From the NCBI RefSeq assembly GCF_009905545.1, contig NZ_JAAALB010000016.1, forward strand, positions 62,001 to 126,000: a stretch of 64,000 bases of DNA, in the 5' to 3' direction. The notes below the pieces were generated by a model, which made no database searches, was not told the origin of the DNA, and was given only the letters and a program-made list of their open reading frames with translations. Shown piece after piece: positions 3,306 to 14,735 of this stretch. The translations under genes were made by a program, and so were the position numbers. Within the stretch, counting starts at the first letter, position 1. Each line of letters starts with the position of its first letter. The DNA comes from Cellulophaga sp. BC115SP (GTDB taxonomy: Bacteria > Bacteroidota > Bacteroidia > Cytophagales > Spirosomataceae).

Positions 3306-3590
3306 AGTTTAAAAACATAAAAGTTTGATTTTCAAATTTAATCAAAAACATCACCTATTCAATTATTCCAGCTTTTAATTAAGTTTTTTTCTTTTGAAAA
3401 GATACTGCTTAGTAAGGTGTACCAAGGTCATTAAAAAGCCTTTAAAATAGATAAATAGACATTTTTTTGAAAAATATCATTAAAAATCACCATGAATATT
3501 TAAACCACAAATAGCTGTATTACAAACAATTACGACCCATAAAACAAGATTTATCCCTTTTGAGAATTTGATATTTTCTATCAAAAAAGC

Positions 3591-3624
3591 CAAAGGCTCT
3601 TAGAACTGAATCTAAGAGCCTTTG
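3591..3624 (-). terminator. Intrinsic terminator of rpoC
   Basis: Perfect 14-bp stem (CAAAGGCTCTTAGA / TCTAAGAGCCTTTG) with a 6-nt loop, followed on the minus strand by GGCTTTTTTGA. It lies 26 nt after the rpoC stop. The remaining space up to the DUF3467 gene (3306-3590) is AT-rich and I see no gene in it. Confidence 0.85.
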
Positions 3625-3650: not shown

Positions 3651-6600
3651 CTAAACAATCCAACGAGCTTTACGATAGCCACCCACTTTTTGTTGAGCTT
3701 GCTGTTCTTTAGCTGTTTCGATTTGTTGTAACTCTTCTTTTGAAGTAATGATATAATCTTGGTATTTACGAACACCAGTACCTGCTGGAATCAAGTGACC
3801 TACGATTACGTTTTCTTTCAAGCCATCTAAGCCATCTGATTTCGCTCTGATAGAAGCTTCAGATAATACTTTCGTTGTCTCTTGGAATGACGCAGCCGAG
3901 ATGAATGATTCAGTACCCAATGACGCCTGAGTAATACCTTGCAAGTTTGGTTGAGAAACTGCTGGTTGAGCGTCACGAACCTCTACTTTACGTAAGTCAC
4001 GTCGTTTCAATGAAGAGTTTTCATCACGCAACGCACGAGTCGTTACAATCATACCAACTTTCATTTTATCTGAGTCACCTGCATCTACAACAACTTTCTT
4101 GTCAAGAATATCGTCATTTGCCAAACGTACAGCAAAACGGTCTACATTCTGATTGTTCAAGAACATGGTATCACCAGAATCAACGATTTCTACTTTTTGC
4201 ATCATCTGACGAACGATACATTCGATGTGCTTATCGTTGATTTTTACACCTTGCAAACGGTAAACGTCCTGAATCTCATTTACTAAGTATTCTTGTACCG
4301 CTGTTGGTCCTTTGATAGCCAAGATATCTGATGGCGTAATTGCTCCATCTGAAAGAGGCACACCTGCACGAACAAAGTCATTGTTTTGTACAAGAATGTG
4401 TTTCGAAAGTGGAACTAAGTATTTACGTTCAGCACCATCTTTAGCTTTCACATAGATTTCACGGTTACCACGTTTGATACCACCTAATGTAATTACACCG
4501 TCGATTTCAGAAACTACGGCAGGGTTAGATGGGTTACGAGCTTCGAACAACTCGGTTACACGTGGAAGACCACCCGTAATGTCACGAGTTTTACCAGCTG
4601 CACGAGGAATCTTAGCAAGAATTTGACCTGGTTTGATTACAGCACCATTCTCAACAGAAAGGCGAGCAGCCACAGGTACGTTGAAAGAAGTTTCTTCACC
4701 GTTTTTGTTAACAATTACGATTGAAGGGTTCTTTGTTTTATCCTTAGATTCGATGATAACTTTTTCTCTCAAACCAGTTTGCTCATCGGCTTCCTCCTTA
4801 TAAGTGATATTTTCTTCGATTGAGTCGAATCGTGCAATACCATCTGCTTCAGAAAGGATTACGGCGTTGTATGGATCCCAAGCACAAATTTCTGCACCTT
4901 TAGTAATAGTTTGTCCATCTTTCACACGCAAGTAAGCACCATACGGAACGTTGTTCGTGATATATACTTGGTTAGTAGCTGGATTCACAATTTGAACCTC
5001 ACCCGAACGACCCATTACGATTTCTACTGGATTACCTTCTGGATCTACAGAGGCTACAGTACGCATCTCTTCGAAACGGATGATACCATCAAATTTCGCT
5101 TTGATTGTTGCATCTAGGGTTACGTTTTGTGCAGTACCCCCAACGTGGAATGTACGAAGTGTCAACTGTGTACCTGGCTCACCAATTGACTGAGATGCAA
5201 TTACACCTACAGCTTCACCAATACTTACCATTCTACCTGTTGAAAGGTTACGTCCATAACACTTAGCACAAACACCATTACGAGTTTCACAAGTTAATAC
5301 CGAACGAATCTCGATAGAATCAATAGCAGTATCATCTACACTTGTTGCCATTTCCTCAGTGATTTCTTCACCAGCAGGAATCAACAATTCACCAGTAACA
5401 GGATCATGTACATCGTGAATTGACACACGACCTAAGATACGTTCTGAAAGTGGTTCGATGATCTCTTCGTTATCTTTCAACGCAGCAATTTGGATACCAC
5501 GTAAAGTACCACAATCCTCTTCGTTTACGATAACATCTTGAGCAACGTCATGCAAACGACGAGTCAAGTAACCCGCATCGGCAGTTTTCAAGGCTGTATC
5601 GGCAAGACCTTTACGAGCACCGTGCGTTGAGATAAAGTACTCAAGTACGTCTAGACCTTCTTTAAAGTTAGAAAGGATTGGGTTTTCGATGATTTCACCT
5701 ACCGAACCTTGTAAGTTCTTTTGAGGTTTTGCCATCAAACCACGCATACCACCTAACTGACGAATCTGTTCACGAGAACCACGAGCACCTGAGTGCATCA
5801 TCATAAAGATCGCGTTGAAGCCTTGCTGGTCATTTTCCATTTGCTTCATCAACGTATCCGTGATTTTCGAGTTTACTTTCGTCCAAATATCAATAACAGC
5901 ATTGTAACGCTCATTATCGGTAATAAGACCCATCAAGTAGTTGTCTGTTACAGAAGCCACATCTTCAGTAGCTTTAGTAATTAACTCAGCCTTTTCTTCT
6001 GGTACGATAATATCACCGATACCCATTGAAAGACCACCTTTGAAGGCCATTTGGTAACCCAATTCTTTAATATCATCCAAGAATTTAGCTGTACGAGCTA
6101 CGCCTGAGATTTTAAATACTTGAGAAATGATTTGTTGCAATTTTTTCTTTGTCAACAATTCATTGATATATCCTACTTCTTCAGGAACACAAAGGTTAAA
6201 CAATACACGACCCGCAACAGTTTTCACCATTTCGTCTACCAATGTACCGTCTTCTTTACGAACCTTAGCTTTTACTTCGATATTAGCATGTTTCGAAACT
6301 CTACCTTCGTTCATACCAATTACTACTTCTTCAAAGCCGTAGAATTTCATTCCTTCACCTACAATTGGGTACTCTGGTGTATGTCTACGTCCTTTTGTTA
6401 CGTAGTACAAACCAAGAACCATGTCTTGAGAAGGTACTGTAATAGGAGCACCGTTGGCAGGGTTCAAGATGTTGTGCGAAGCCAACATCAATAAAGATGC
6501 CTCAAGGATAGCCTCTTGACCTAGTGGTACGTGTACCGCCATCTGGTCACCATCAAAGTCGGCGTTGAAGGCCGTACAAGTCAACGGGTGCAATTGGATA

Positions 6601-7979
6601 GCTTTACCTTCGATCAACTTAGGTTGGAAAGCTTGGATACCCAAACGGTGGAGAGTTGGGGCACGGTTAAGAAGAACAGGGTGTCCTTTCATTACGTTTT
6701 CCAAGATATCCCAAACTACAGGGTCTTTCCTATCAACGATTTTCTTAGCAGATTTTACCGTTTTAACGATACCACGCTCAATCAATTTGCGAATAACAAA
6801 TGGTTTGAATAGCTCGGCAGCCATATCTTTTGGCAAACCACACTCGTGCATCTTCAATTCAGGACCTACTACAATTACCGAACGACCAGAGTAGTCAACA
6901 CGTTTACCTAACAAGTTTTGACGGAAACGACCTTGCTTACCTTTCAACATATCAGAAAGAGATTTCAAAGCACGGTTACCTTCAGAACGAACAGCGTTAA
7001 CTTTACGTGAGTTATCAAACAATGAGTCAACAGCTTCTTGAAGCATACGTTTTTCGTTACGTAAAATTACTTCAGGAGCTTTGATTTCGATCAAACGCTT
7101 CAAACGGTTGTTACGAATAATTACACGACGGTAAAGATCGTTCAAATCGGACGTTGCAAAACGACCACCATCTAGCGGTACCAATGGACGTAATTCTGGT
7201 GGAATTACAGGAACCATTTTAATTACCATCCATTCTGGTTTGTTCTCGATACGAGTACCTGCTTCACGGAAAGCTTCAACTACTTTCAAACGTTTTAAAG
7301 CTTCAGCTTTACGTTGTTGAGAAGTATCATTAGCAGCCGAGTGACGAAGGCTATAAGAAAGGTCATCTAACGCAGTACGTTTCAACAACATTTCAAGTGC
7401 CTCTGCACCCATCTTAGCGATGAATTTTTGAGGATCTTCGTCAGGAAGCAATTGGTTTTCGCGAGGCAATTTGTCGATAATGTCCAAATATTCGTCTTCT
7501 GTTAAGAAGTCCATTTTGTTAACACCATCTTCCTCTTTGATACCAGGTTGAACTACCACATATCTTTCGTAGTAGATAACTTGATCCAATTTTTTAGTAG
7601 AAAGACCTAGCAAATAACCAATTTTGTTAGGTAAGCTACGGAAGTACCAGATGTGTGCTACAGGAACCACCAATTCGATGTGTCCCATACGCTCACGACG
7701 TACTTTTTTCTCAGTAACCTCTACACCACAACGGTCACAGATGATACCTTTATAGCGAATACGCTTATATTTTCCACAGTGACATTCCCAGTCTTTCGTT
7801 GGACCGAAGATACGCTCGCAGAACAAACCACCCATCTCTGGTTTGTAAGTCCTATAGTTGATGGTTTCAGGTTGAGTAACCTCACCATGCGAACCTTCAA
7901 GAATTGACTCTGGCGATGCCAACGAGATTGTTACTCTCTGGAAGTCGCTATTTAATTTTCTATTTTTTTTGAATGACAT
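3651..7979 (-). CDS. rpoC: DNA-directed RNA polymerase subunit beta'
   Basis: Catalytic beta' subunit of RNA polymerase, 1442 residues, full length. The N-terminal zinc site is visible (C66, C68, C81, C84). The active-site NADFDGD motif at residues 472-478 supplies the three Mg-binding aspartates. A second cysteine cluster ([13 protein letters not shown]) marks the C-terminal zinc site, and the trigger-loop region around [13 protein letters not shown] is intact. In most bacteria rpoC directly follows rpoB. Here a 1.65-kb membrane protein gene lies between them, and a 144-nt untranslated stretch precedes this start. In that stretch an AAGGAG stands upstream of a two-codon ATG-TGT-TAA mini-frame. 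Confidence 0.99.
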
Positions 7980-8123
7980 TTTTAAATCTGTTTTTAATTT
8001 AAAATATCTAAGGGTTTGGAGAAATTAACACATGGCCTTACTTCTCCTTGGTAATTGACTTTCAGAAAAATAACCTTACGATTAAGCGTGAGTACTCATT
8101 CACTTATGAAAAGCGTTATTCAT

Positions 8124-9770
8124 TTATAAAACATCCCAAGTAAGATTTGTCTTATAATATTTTGCTTTTGACTCCTGATAATCACACAAGATTAACTCGT
8201 AAGATCCTTTGTACAGTTCGCTTTTTGATATAATCGTATTGTATTCTGAGCTTTGTAAATATGGTTTTTTGGATGCCAACTGAACTCTACTTGGGTTATA
8301 CACAAATAAATGTTCTTTCGACTTCAACAAGTAATAAGTTCCATTAAGTCCAGATTGCTCCAGATTATTACCGTCTAATATCAAAGTGGAATCTGTTACC
8401 ACAGATTGCAAAGTCAAAGTTTCCTTCTCAAAAGTCGGTTTTTCAGCAAATGATTTCCATTCTTTATGCAAGGGTGTTGCCGGAAAAACATAAGCCTTAT
8501 AATGATTCATTAACGAATCGTTCGTCTTTTTGATAAAGTAGAATGGGTTATAATGCGGATGAGTAGGAGGAACACCATCATAATAATGATTAAATGTTAC
8601 TGCTGCTAAAAGTTTGGCACGCGAGGACATTAATCCCCAAAATTTTGCATATCCTAAAAAGAAGACTGCCATAGAAAACCCTAGAGCAATTTTAGCAAAA
8701 TGTGCATACCTTACATTCATCACAAAATATCCATACACTAATGCCAGTGCCATGAAAGCATAATAACGATGATTGGAAACTAACATCGTAAATTCTGGAT
8801 CACTTCCTGTTCGACCAAATGCGATTACACTGGTTGTAAAAAGTAGATATCCAAGCGCATAAAATGTAAATGATGCTACAAAACGTGTCGTTTGATCTTT
8901 TGCTCTCATATTGAGAAAAGATTTCCACAAAACAAAAAATACCAAAAGGAGAGTTAAAAACCCTGCTATACCTGGTACTGTAGCCTTCCAAAAACTTAAT
9001 GACGACAAGGATAAATCAGCCCATCCACCCCAAATGTACAAAAAACCTAAAGGAATATAAGTTGGATGCTCTTGAAACGTCTTTAGTCCTAATTCAATAA
9101 ATGGTTGCTTTTGGTAACCATGAAAATAAAATCCGACTATTATCGCTGCATAAGTCAACCATGCCAATAGCAACTTATATTTCTTTTCTACTAATAAGAT
9201 GACAGCTCCCAATGGTAGGGCAAAAATGCCACTACCAAAGGAAAAAATGCCCATTAGTACAGTTCCAAATGCAAGGTAATTCCACTTAGAATTTTTCTGT
9301 AACAATAGATATACTGTCCAAATACTATAAAACAAAGCCCATAAGTACTGACATGAAGAGTTTGCCCAGGTAATAATGATATAAATATGTAAAGGAAACA
9401 TAAGATATACCATTGGCAACAGCTTACTACTACTTTCAACTCTTCTGAAGGTACTATATACTACTAAATATAATCCTAGCAATGAGAAGTCTCCAATATA
9501 AGGGTAATAGTTGAAATGAATCTGACCAAACACTTTATATTGAAACATACTCATCAGCGTCAAAATAGGAAAACGATACTCATTGTGCTGTGCAAACAAC
9601 GCAGTAAGTTTTTCGCTAATAGTTGATGCTTTTAGTTCTCCTAAAAATGCTCCTGCTACCATCGTGTAGTCATCATAGATCACAAGGTTTTGTGTATGAT
9701 AAAAACAGAAATAGGCAAACATTAAAGGAGGTATTATACCTAGTAACCAAACACCTAGCTTCTTTGTCAT
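8124..9770 (-). CDS. Polytopic membrane protein, GT-C glycosyltransferase-like, between rpoB and rpoC
   Basis: 548-residue inner-membrane protein with about ten hydrophobic segments in the first 400 residues and a soluble C-terminal region of about 150 residues. I infer a GT-C type glycosyltransferase from three things: a D-D pair in the first periplasmic loop (IYDDYTM, D33/D34), the QHNEYRFP motif near residues 61-68, and the overall helix layout. I cannot name a donor or acceptor. The start is an ATG only 3 nt after the rpoB stop (TAA TAA ATG), so it is almost certainly co-transcribed and translationally coupled with rpoB. rpoC follows 144 nt later in the same direction. Base composition does not differ obviously from neighbouring non-ribosomal genes. 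Another fold of polytopic enzyme cannot be excluded. Confidence 0.75.
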   Translation of the reverse strand: MTKKLGVWLLGIIPPLMFAYFCFYHTQNLVIYDDYTMVAGAFLGELKASTISEKLTALFAQHNEYRFPILTLMSMFQYKVFGQIHFNYYPYIGDFSLLGLYLVVYSTFRRVESSSKLLPMVYLMFPLHIYIIITWANSSCQYLWALFYSIWTVYLLLQKNSKWNYLAFGTVLMGIFSFGSGIFALPLGAVILLVEKKYKLLLAWLTYAAIIVGFYFHGYQKQPFIELGLKTFQEHPTYIPLGFLYIWGGWADLSLSSLSFWKATVPGIAGFLTLLLVFFVLWKSFLNMRAKDQTTRFVASFTFYALGYLLFTTSVIAFGRTGSDPEFTMLVSNHRYYAFMALALVYGYFVMNVRYAHFAKIALGFSMAVFFLGYAKFWGLMSSRAKLLAAVTFNHYYDGVPPTHPHYNPFYFIKKTNDSLMNHYKAYVFPATPLHKEWKSFAEKPTFEKETLTLQSVVTDSTLILDGNNLEQSGLNGTYYLLKSKEHLFVYNPSRVQLASKKPYLQSSEYNTIISKSELYKGSYELILCDYQESKAKYYKTNLTWDVL

Positions 9771-9773
9771 TTA

Positions 9774-12700
9774 TTACTCTAACGTAATTTCTAGAGCTAA
9801 ACCTCTTAGTTCGTGGATCAATACGTTGAATGATTCTGGAATACCTGGTTTTGGCATGTTTTCACCTTTAACGATAGCTTCGTATGCTTTTGCACGACCT
9901 ACTACGTCATCGGATTTAACTGTCAAAATTTCTTGAAGGATATTAGCAGCACCAAACGCTTCGAGTGCCCAAACCTCCATTTCACCAAAACGCTGACCAC
10001 CAAATTGTGCTTTACCACCAAGAGGTTGTTGCGTAATCAATGAGTATGGTCCGATTGAACGTGCGTGCATTTTGTCATCTACTAAGTGACCCAATTTCAG
10101 CATGTAAATAATACCTACTGTTACTGGTTGGTCAAAACGCTCGCCGCTAAGACCATTATACAAGTATGTACGACCCCAAGATGGTAATCCTGCTAATGTC
10201 AATTCGTGAGCAACTTCAGCTTCTGTAGCACCGTCAAAGATTGGAGTAGCGTATTTCTTGTTCAATTTTTCACCTGCCCAAGCCAATACTGTTTCATAAA
10301 TCTGACCGATGTTCATACGTGAAGGTACCCCTAGTGGGTTCAACACGATGTCTACTGGAGTTCCATCTTCTAAGAATGGCATATCTTCGTCACGTACAAT
10401 ACGAGCTACAACCCCTTTGTTACCGTGGCGACCCGCCATTTTGTCACCCACTTTCAACTTACGTTTCTTAGCGATATATACTTTCGCCAATTTCACGATA
10501 CCCGCTGGCAATTCGTCACCTACTTCTAATACGAATCTTTCACGTTTGAAGCGACCTACTAGTTCGTTACGACGAACGTTGTAGTTTTTCACTAACTGTA
10601 ACAACAATTTGTTAGCTGCATCGTCTTCACTAGCCTCTTCCAAAATCAAGTCAGCCAACAAGTTAGCCTCTTCAGGAACGCTATATGAGCTATCGTCACG
10701 GTACAAGTTTTTAGCTGGGAACAAAGCTTCTTCAATGTTACGAGCTGTAAACTTGATTCCTTTTTCAAGGATAACCGAACCGAATTTATGTTTGATACCG
10801 TTACAAGTTTTACCTTCTAACAATTCAACCATTTTGCCTATCATCGTAGCACGAATAGAAGTAAGGTCTCTTGACAATTGTTTTGACAAAATTGCCAATT
10901 CTTTCTTCGCTTTCTCACGCTCGTCTTTATCTTTCTTAGGACGGCTGAACAATTTGGTATCGATAACAACACCTTTCAATGATGGTGGTGCTTTCTTAGA
11001 AGCATCCTTCACATCACCAGCTTTATCACCGAAGATAGCACGAAGTAGTTTTTCTTCTGGAGTTGGATCAGACTCTCCTTTTGGTGTGATTTTACCAATA
11101 AGGATATCTCCTTCTTTTACTTCAGAACCTACGCGTACAACACCATTTTCATCTAAGTTCTTCACAGTTTCTTCAGAAACGTTAGGAATCTCAGCTGTTA
11201 ATTCTTCTTCACCACGTTTTGTATCACGAACTTCTAGTTCAAACTCTTCAATGTGGATTGAAGTAAAGATATCATCACGAACAACTTTCTCAGAAATTAC
11301 AATCGCATCCTCGAAGTTGTAACCTTGCCAAGGCATGAAGGCTACTTTCATGTTACGTCCAAGTGCCAATTCACCTTGTTGTGTTGCATAACCCTCACAA
11401 AGTGCTTCTCCTTTTTTCACACGTTGTCCTTTACGAACAATTGGCTTCAAGTTGATTGTAGTATCCTGGTTAGTTCTACGGAACTTAATCAATTTGTATT
11501 CTTTTGTATCACCTTCAAAGCTTACTAGGTACTCATTAGGAGACATATCGTATTTTACAACGATTTTGATACTGTCTACATAAGCAATAACACCATCTGC
11601 TTCTGCAACAACTAATGTGCGAGAGTCAAGTGCTACACGAGCTTCAAGACCTGTACCTACGATAGGAGCTTCAGGACGCAACAATGGCACGGCCTGACGT
11701 TGCATGTTTGAACCCATCAAGGCACGGTTGGCATCATCGTGTTCCAAGAATGGAATCAAAGATGCTGCAACTGATACAATTTGGTTTGGAGCAACGTCCA
11801 TGAATTGAGCCTCTTGTGGGTCAACTCTTGGGAAGTCACCTTCAAAACGAGCTTTTACACGATCGCTTTCAAACAAACCATCATCACCATAAGAAGCATT
11901 TGCCTGAATGATGTTTTTACCATCTTCTTCTTCTGCTGTCAAATAATGAACTTGATCTACCTGTACTTTACCTCCTTCAACAACACGGTAAGGTGTTTCA
12001 ATAAAGCCCATCGAGTTGATTTTTGCGTGAACGCAAAGTGATGAAATCAAACCGATGTTTGGACCTTCAGGAGTTTCAATCGTACAAAGACGACCATAGT
12101 GCGTATAGTGAACGTCACGAACCTCAAAACCTGCACGTTCGCGAGAAAGACCACCAGGTCCAAGGGCCGATAAACGACGCTTGTGAGTAATCTCAGCCAA
12201 TGGGTTTGTTTGGTCCATGAACTGAGAAAGCTGGTTAGTTCCGAAGAACGAGTTGATTACTGATGAAAGCGTACGAGCGTTGATCAAATCTACTGGCTTG
12301 AAGTCTTCGTTATCACGAACGTTCATACGTTCTTTGATTGTACGAGCCATACGAGCCAAACCTACACCAAATTGAGCATATAATTGCTCACCTACTGTAC
12401 GAACACGACGGTTTGACAAGTGGTCAATATCATCGACTACAGCTTTAGAGTTGATCAAACCGATTAAGTATTTAACAATAGAGATGATATCATCTTTTGT
12501 TAAAACTTTTGTTTCCATCGGAATATCATGTCCCAATTTCTTGTTAATTCTGTAGCGACCTACCTCACCTAAATCGTAACGTTTGTCAGAGAAGAACAAG
12601 TTTTGGATAATATCACGAGCTGTTTGCTCATCAGGTGCTTCTGTGTTACGCAACTGACGGTAAATTTGCTCAACCGCTTCTTTTTCAGAGTTTGAAGAGT

Positions 12701-13643
12701 CTTTTTGTAACGTATTATAAATGATGTTATAATCGTTTACGTTCATATCTTCTTTGTGAAGAATGATTGTATCAAGACCTGCATCTAAAATAGTTTCGAT
12801 GTCATTGGCAGAAATAACAGAGTCACGCTCCAACAATACTTCGTTACGGTCGATAGATACTACTTCACCAGTATCTTCATCTACGAAGTCTTCTTGCCAA
12901 GTTCTCAATACCCTTGCAGCCAAGCGACGACCTACTGCTTTTTTCAAAGTAGCTTGGTCAGCTCTAACTTCTTCAGAAAGACCAAACAAGTCTAAGATTT
13001 CTTTATCTGAACCGAAACCAATCGCACGTAAAAGAGTTGTTACAGGGAACTTTTTCTTACGGTCGATGTAAGCATACATTACGTTGTTTACGTCAGTTGC
13101 AAATTCAATCCAAGAACCTTTGAAAGGAATAATACGAGCTGAGTACAACTTTGTACCATTTGTGTGACGGCTTTGAGAGAAGAATACCCCTGGAGAACGG
13201 TGCAATTGCGATACAATTACACGCTCAGCTCCGTTGATTACGAATGAGCCGCGCTCAGTCATGTAAGGAATATTTCCTAAGAATACTTCTTGCTCAATAG
13301 TTTCGAAATCTTCGTTGTCGTCATCATTACAAATCAAACGAAGTTTCGCTTTTAAAGGTACCGAGTAAGTAAGACCACGGTCGATACACTCATCTACCGA
13401 ATATTTTGGAGGGTCAACCGAATAGTCAATAAATTCGAGAACAAAGTTTTCACGAGAATCCGCGATAGGGAAGTTCTCTGCAAAAACCTTAAATAGACCC
13501 TCGTCATTACGATTTTCAGCAGGAGTTTCCAATTGGAAGAACTCCTGAAATGACTTCACCTGAATATCCAAGAAATCTGGGTACTCAAGCAAATTCTTAA
13601 CTTTGGCGAACGCGAGTCTGCCAGTGTTTGTCATGTGTGCCAA
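9774..13643 (-). CDS. rpoB: DNA-directed RNA polymerase subunit beta
   Basis: Beta subunit of RNA polymerase, 1289 residues, full length. Recognisable family segments run in order: the N-terminal lobe with [21 protein letters not shown]; the rifampicin region with [30 protein letters not shown] and [11 protein letters not shown]; the active-site neighbourhood [28 protein letters not shown]; and the C-terminal [21 protein letters not shown]. The start at 13643 gives the normal [12 protein letters not shown] beginning. It has a long leader of about 240 nt with its own Bacteroidota-type promoter. It is separated from rplL by a terminator and a convergent gene. Confidence 0.99.
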
Positions 13644-13888: not shown

Positions 13889-13919
13889 CAAAATTACCAA
13901 ATTAATCTTTGATTATCAA
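13889..13919 (-). promoter_or_regulatory. Promoter of rpoB (Bacteroidota sigma type)
   Basis: On the minus strand a TTG at 13919-13917 is followed after 20 nt by TAATTTTG (13896-13889), an exact match to the Bacteroidota -7 consensus TAnnTTTG with the usual spacing. Transcription would start near 13882, leaving a leader of roughly 240 nt before rpoB. The leader (13644-13882) holds no open gene. Confidence 0.7.
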
Positions 13920-14108
13920 GTTTTTAGCAAGAAAATTTGGAGTTGTAAAGAAAATGCACTATACAGGGCATTTTTAACAAAAAAAGCCTCTGAAGACCAT
14001 TAAAACTTATTTAAAATATTCATCTTCAAATATACTTGACATTGTCACTTAAAACATTTAACTTCCTCTAAATCAAACCTTTTTACGACTAAGACAACCC
14101 TCGAACAA

Positions 14109-14534
14109 ATTGAGCACTGGGGCGACACACATCACCCAGCTTGGCTCGACATCGTACGTATTTTTTTGGGCGTTTTGCTTTTCATGAAAGGGGTTAGCTT
14201 TATTGGCGATACCACTTATCTTGCAACTTTGATTCAGGGATTACACTTTAATGCGTGGACAGTGGTGGCAGTGCATTATGTAGCATTTGCACACTTAGTA
14301 GGAGGACTCATGATTCTGCTGGGCTGTCTTACTCGTACAGCGTCGATTGCACAGCTTCCTATCATGATTGTAGCAGTTTTCTTTACCAACCTCAGAAATG
14401 GTTTTAGTTATTTAAACTCTGAGCTATGGTTATCGGTGTTTGTGTTAATTATGCTTATGGTATTTTCGGTAATAGGATCTGGAGGATTTTCATTTGATGA
14501 GTTTGTAAAAAGGAATACACCCAAAAGGAATTAA
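14109..14534 (+). CDS. DoxX-like small membrane protein with unclear start codon
   Basis: Small inner-membrane protein of about 140 residues with four hydrophobic segments, consistent with the DoxX family; the precise role is unknown. Conserved-looking sequence W-G-D-T-H-H-P-A-W-L-D-I-V-R lies upstream of the first usable start codon, the TTG at 14166. Reading back in frame to the stop at 14037-14039 there is no ATG, GTG or TTG. Translation therefore starts at a rare codon (ATT at 14109 or ACG at 14085), starts late at 14166 without this segment, or the start has been lost. I give 14109 as a compromise. It lies convergent to the ribosomal block, in the rplL-rpoB gap where nothing is normally expected. 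Confidence 0.6.
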   Translation: MEHWGDTHHPAWLDIVRIFLGVLLFMKGVSFIGDTTYLATLIQGLHFNAWTVVAVHYVAFAHLVGGLMILLGCLTRTASIAQLPIMIVAVFFTNLRNGFSYLNSELWLSVFVLIMLMVFSVIGSGGFSFDEFVKRNTPKRN

Positions 14535-14700
14535 AGATAAACACAAACATGAGAGATACCCGAATATTGGGGATATCGGATGTTTGACTTTGGATTAATC
14601 AGTTTTAGAGTACCAATCCAACATAATAGCAAACCTTCCTGCACGACTAATTCTTGTACAAATGAAAGATTAAAATCATTAGTAAAAGTTGATATAAAGC

Positions 14701-14735
14701 AAAAAGAGCCATAACCTTTGGTTATGACTCTTTTT
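14701..14735 (-). terminator. Intrinsic terminator of rplL
   Basis: AAAAAGAGcCATAACC pairs with GGTTATGaCTCTTTTT around a 3-nt loop, with T-runs on both sides. It lies 22 nt past the rplL stop and could also end transcription of the convergent DoxX-like gene. It separates the ribosomal protein transcript from rpoB. Confidence 0.8.

Follow-up and report, generated by a model that had tools for sequence, protein, structure and literature searches.

The beta and beta' subunits are both required in RNA polymerase, and their genes, rpoB and rpoC, are usually regarded as fixed neighbours, a linkage held to be near universal in bacteria. In the 64,000-nucleotide stretch of DNA analysed here (the window), another gene, which we call X, stands between them. 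The gene order on the minus strand is rpoB, X, rpoC, all in one direction. The locus comprises the following features, listed in the direction of transcription of rpoB.

14701..14735, minus strand: intrinsic-terminator-like hairpin after rplL, parting rplKAJL from rpoB
14166..14534, plus strand (opposite to rpoB): 122-residue open reading frame between rplL and rpoB, which we take to be DoxX-like
13889..13919, minus strand: Bacteroidota-type promoter-like site upstream of rpoB, TTG - TAATTTTG (motif match only)
9774..13643, minus strand: rpoB, RNA polymerase beta, stop codon included (start codon position tentative)
8124..9770, minus strand: X, a 548-residue polytopic membrane protein, suspected GT-C-like glycosyltransferase (from hydropathy, family alignment and the context of relatives)
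7980..8123, minus strand: X-rpoC spacer, 144 nt
3651..7979, minus strand: rpoC, RNA polymerase beta'
3582..3624, minus strand: intrinsic-terminator-like hairpin with a T-run after rpoC

The first two genes are 3 nt apart: rpoB runs from 13643 to 9774 and is followed by TAA and then by the ATG of X. The X reading frame has 548 codons, starts with ATG and contains no internal stops. A preliminary description of this DNA had placed a 548-residue polytopic gene 3 nt after rpoB, with rpoC 144 nt further on and on the same strand, and we confirm these coordinates.

The rpoB-rpoC spacer in related genomes

What normally lies between rpoB and rpoC in this group? We drew 150 genomes of the same taxonomic family from a larger group and measured the spacer in 138 of them; in the 12 left out, rpoB or rpoC was missing or cut. 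Coordinates compared by eye supplied 119 of the measurements (some of these spacers were also read as sequence), and fetched loci supplied 13 and a further 6.

Intact spacers are structured. We folded 48 distinct spacers of 40-200 nt, leaving others out, and 43 of these are more stable than their shuffled versions (z below -2; mean -4.7). The remaining five do not fall below -2, and the X-rpoC gap is weak too (z -1.0). Intact spacers such as those at loci L090, L012 and L149 contain long hairpins without a T-run; the structure is kept and the stem sequences are very different. Among 46 family spacers, 21 have a CATTTTC box 24-28 nt before rpoC (loci L009-L011, L013-L016, L019, L020, L047, L048, L084, L086-L088 and L092-L097); it is present in 0 of 16 others. 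This box could pair with GAAAATG at the rpoC start codon. Start-codon pairing before rpoC averages 0.67 against 0.52 in shuffles for the 46 family spacers, and 0.53 against 0.52 for the 16 others. A search of 20 loci against Rfam gave no match. As guesses, the hairpins and the CATTTTC box might mark a site of processing or hold back rpoC.

Fourteen of the 138 spacers contain genes or the remnant of one, and three of these hold X. A ParE-type toxin pair sits in the spacer of G087 and of G132, with a decayed pair at the same place in G127 (G132 and G127 are loci L082 and L083). Five g20 genomes have an acyltransferase (G020, G060, G072, G082 and G091), G023 has a GDSL-like gene that scores below the Pfam cut-off, and G006 has small open reading frames. 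G065, from the neighbouring genus g36, has two ParE-type toxin pairs, another polytopic protein and, beside rpoC, a relative of X that we call X'. One acyltransferase and four ParE proteins were searched against Pfam. Every inserted gene that was read points in the same direction as the operon. In six g16 genomes the spacer measures 326-330 nt and shows no clear gene (L080, L081 and L212-L215).

As controls we used the junctions rplK-rplA, rplA-rplJ and rplJ-rplL; none of the 48 such junctions in 16 genomes is longer than 300 nt. The rplL-rpoB junction exceeds this length in 7 of 16 genomes. Of 20 fetched genomes, 5 showed no rplKAJL within roughly 6 kb upstream of rpoB. Loose junctions are therefore not confined to rpoB-rpoC.

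Distribution and history of X

Three of the five sampled Flectobacillus (g1) genomes have the order rpoB-X-rpoC: the window genome, G066 and G037. X is intact in the latter two, with amino acid identities to the window protein of 98 and 94%, respectively. Two named records matched by X, Flectobacillus sp. BAB-3569 and F. longus LYT7W, show the same order. In G001 and G053, also Flectobacillus, rpoB and rpoC are contiguous, with spacers of 111 and 106 nt and no X. Because these two genomes keep the genes adjacent, the rpoB-X-rpoC link is not conserved, even inside Flectobacillus. The preliminary description had proposed a search of related genomes for the same order and had named, as evidence against its reading, the absence of X from close relatives with contiguous rpoB and rpoC. 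That evidence is found in part: two further Flectobacillus genomes share the order, two congeners are contiguous without X, and elsewhere unrelated inserts occupy the spacer.

Where X is present it is, judging by substitution rates, under purifying selection. Pairwise comparison of the three X-bearing genomes gives dN/dS ratios of 0.05, 0.10 and 0.10 for X; the values for rpoB and rpoC are 0.009-0.019.

Did X arrive at rpoBC once or more than once? The X' protein of G065, which abuts rpoC, is 36-37% identical to X and is its nearest relative by far, with 325 bits compared to 131.7 for the next. In a tree with 29 other members of the protein family, X and X' form one clade, apart from the rest, with support of 100. 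This closeness, taken with the adjacency to rpoC, fits a shared origin at rpoBC better than a chance passenger. X could have entered once, in the ancestor of Flectobacillus and g36, and later been lost in the lineages without it, rather than having arrived twice or spread through recombination within the adjoining rpoB and rpoC. The single clade, both of whose members adjoin rpoC, argues for one entry. The rpoC tree argues against it, requiring two changes for presence at rpoBC, as do the spacers of genomes without X: several keep the CATTTTC box shared with other genera, most keep the hairpin, and an ancestral-looking spacer would need restoring by clean loss. We regard a single entry as somewhat unlikely. 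The ancestral-looking spacers of genomes lacking X point to two entries, or to transfer by way of the adjoining rpoB and rpoC, rather than to one entry with losses.

The nature of X

The hydropathy profile of X has several peaks between residues 4 and 319, and the C-terminal part of the protein is free of strongly hydrophobic stretches. X has no match in Pfam or NCBIfam at E 1, and 15 members of its protein family gave only stray matches to these models, the best at E 0.029. A profile search of the PDB returned a single irrelevant match (E 0.1). An AlphaFold2 model of X was discarded: its mean pLDDT was 36 and its input was three near-identical sequences.

The protein family is common, with a member at E 1e-10 or better in 132 of the 150 genomes and in 35 of 36 genera. 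Across 15 aligned members, D33, D34, N63, E64 and R66 are invariant, the acidic pair D33/D34 standing after the first hydrophobic stretch. We also fetched 29 loci of X relatives away from rpoBC, namely the best-scoring relatives and three from the window's own genome. A GT2-like neighbour is found at 20 of the 29 and a DUF6056-like neighbour at 22, the Pfam names having been verified on three GT2 and one DUF6056 proteins. None of the window genome's three relatives has a GT2 neighbour. One of the three, an X paralogue (L002/L200), lies directly behind a PMT_2 glycosyltransferase gene. Comparison of the X family with 10 PMT_2 proteins of relatives by hhalign gave a probability of 3% over 46 columns, which is no support.

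Three-component GtrA/GtrB/GtrC-like systems contain GT-C glycosyltransferases. X resembles these enzymes in being polytopic, in its early acidic pair and in having relatives that often lie beside GT2 genes; it differs in lacking a Pfam GT-C match, a PMT_2 profile match and a GT2 neighbour of its own. By this analogy the X family fits a GT-C-like transferase that uses a lipid-linked sugar. We do not file X as a member of the GT-C superfamily; the curated-model and PMT_2 profile tests were both negative. The earlier label 'glycosyltransferase-like' is thus still plausible: the GT2 neighbours of X relatives speak for it, whereas the searches of curated models and the PMT_2 comparison do not.

Separation of rpoB and rpoC in Cytophagales

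We extended the survey to the order and the class, using genomes at least 85% complete and reading adjacency by eye. Among 75 Cytophagales genomes, rpoB and rpoC are adjacent in 54, not adjacent in 20 and undetermined in 1. The separated genomes belong to the coded families f2 (5/5), f4 (5/5), f18 (4/4), f9 (4/5) and f20 (2/4); the one undetermined genome is G196 of f20, whose rpoC lies 105 nt from the end of its contig. In six of the 20 a single contig holds both genes, at distances of 38 kb to 2.4 Mb. The remaining 14 have them on different contigs, and the sequence left before the contig ends implies a separation of at least about 14 kb; for these cases the flanking sequence was read on both sides. 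The class-level sample contained 76 genomes, from which 3 without a match and 3 of the window's own order were removed. Of the 70 matched genomes from other orders, 69 keep rpoB and rpoC side by side, and in one the genes fall on two contigs. In the same sample, G240 and G242 additionally have part of rpoC on a second contig. On the rpoC tree, separation takes three state changes, one of which is forced by well-supported branches alone; the tree is weakly resolved.

Separated genes have signals that the intact junctions scanned lack. By our own rule (a stem with a T-run within the first 120 nt), a terminator-like hairpin follows rpoB in 17 of the 20 separated genomes (loci L101-L140) and in 0 of 52 intact spacers. 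The -7 box of the Bacteroidota sigma-A promoter is TAnnTTTG (PMC9723704). This motif occurs within 150 nt before rpoC in 17 of the 20 separated genomes, where shuffles predict 2.1, and at 25-70 nt in 15, where they predict 0.7. It is absent from intact spacers, both the 51 of the family and 20 others. Our searches of the open-licence literature, in which PMC2584045, PMC3879981 and PMC1924603 were consulted, brought up no paper that we recognised as dealing with inserted or separated rpoB and rpoC in Bacteroidota.

Probable transcription of rpoB-X-rpoC as one unit

In the window, the hairpin after rplL, the opposite-strand reading frame and the promoter-like site (13889-14735) cut rplKAJL off from rpoB. 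On the minus strand from 14760 to 3300 there are seven TAnnTTTG sites, two of which have a TTG at a distance of 17-23 nt: one before rpoB (13919-13889) and one after rpoC (near 3340). A scan for E. coli-type sigma-70 promoters was set aside, having found 12 motifs against 7.8 in shuffles.

By its motifs, rpoB-X-rpoC looks like a self-contained transcription unit. The promoter-like site before rpoB, the terminator after rpoC and the lack of a recognizable promoter in the gap lead us to infer that rpoC transcription probably depends on read-through of X. The preliminary description had left a choice between read-through and a promoter in the 144-nt gap; with no promoter of the sigma-A type found there, the motifs make read-through the likely course.

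Could rpoC nevertheless have a promoter of its own, within the gap or towards the 3' end of X, leaving X without effect on beta'? Three species share exactly the same 41 nt next to rpoC, whereas the end of the gap nearer X has diverged, and because of this identity the gap may contain an unrecognised control element or type of promoter. A lone TAnnTTTG lies inside X at 9038, and separated relatives did acquire such promoters. Yet the gap itself has no TAnnTTTG, compared to 17 of 20 separated rpoC genes with one, and the terminator-like stem after X is weak, at 6 bp. We consider a separate rpoC promoter unlikely, and take read-through of X as the working model.

Discussion

How does a membrane protein gene come to lie between two subunits of RNA polymerase? 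On balance we favour the view that X is a passenger gene that rides the rpoB promoter, in an order whose rpoB-rpoC link has relaxed. X would be a member of a common polytopic family, probably a GT-C-like envelope glycosyltransferase acting on a polyprenyl-phosphate sugar. It would have settled immediately downstream of rpoB in one clade of Flectobacillus, replacing the usual short hairpin spacer, and this would have been possible because the link is relaxed in this order. X would be kept for its own function, with its expression riding on the rpoB promoter and rpoC transcribed through it by read-through. Unrelated genes have entered the Cytophagales spacer time and again, and where whole families have rpoB and rpoC separated outright, rpoB would have gained a terminator and rpoC its own promoter.

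The contrary view is that the arrangement is regulatory: envelope glycan synthesis would scale with RNA polymerase, or translation of X would set the beta/beta' ratio. X is on the same strand as rpoB, and the 3-nt spacing permits translational coupling. X' of G065 likewise adjoins rpoC, some of the other inserts could be envelope proteins (the acyltransferase, the polytopic protein and the GDSL-like product), and X is under purifying selection. These points are outweighed, in our judgement, by what is seen elsewhere: two congeneric genomes lack X, ParE-type toxin pairs are among the other inserts, and certain families have rpoB and rpoC apart. A regulatory link is thus quite improbable. The preliminary description had held that a cell-envelope protein is tied to RNA polymerase expression. 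The tie survives as one apparent transcription unit, as judged from motifs; its regulatory meaning is not supported, with X missing from G001 and G053 and unrelated genes in the same spacer of other relatives. Misassembly, which that description had raised, or an annotation artefact has a negligible chance of accounting for the order and is excluded for practical purposes, because divergent, intact copies of X occupy the same position in three genomes and the two named records agree.

The Flectobacillus unit can be compared with the rpoBC (beta) operon of most bacteria. Both have rpoB then rpoC on one strand, with a promoter-like site upstream and a terminator downstream. Here, however, an unrelated membrane gene lies between the two, a terminator and a reading frame on the other strand part rplL from rpoB, and relatives of the same order have rpoB and rpoC fully apart. 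In Helicobacter and Wolbachia, rpoB and rpoC are fused. That too is a lineage-specific change at the junction, but fusion closes the junction whereas in Cytophagales it has been opened.

It is possible, and we suggest it tentatively, that the linkage is dissolving stepwise in Cytophagales: from a spacer with a hairpin lacking a T-run, to insertion with read-through into rpoC, to a terminator after rpoB and a promoter before rpoC, and finally to separation. If this is true, beta and beta' would need a new way of being balanced. X is a case of an envelope-type gene inside an RNA polymerase unit, but the wider pattern, repeated insertion and separation within one order, merits attention more than X itself. 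With intact, invaded and broken junctions among related species, the order offers a natural series in which to ask whether the balance of beta and beta' needs co-transcription.
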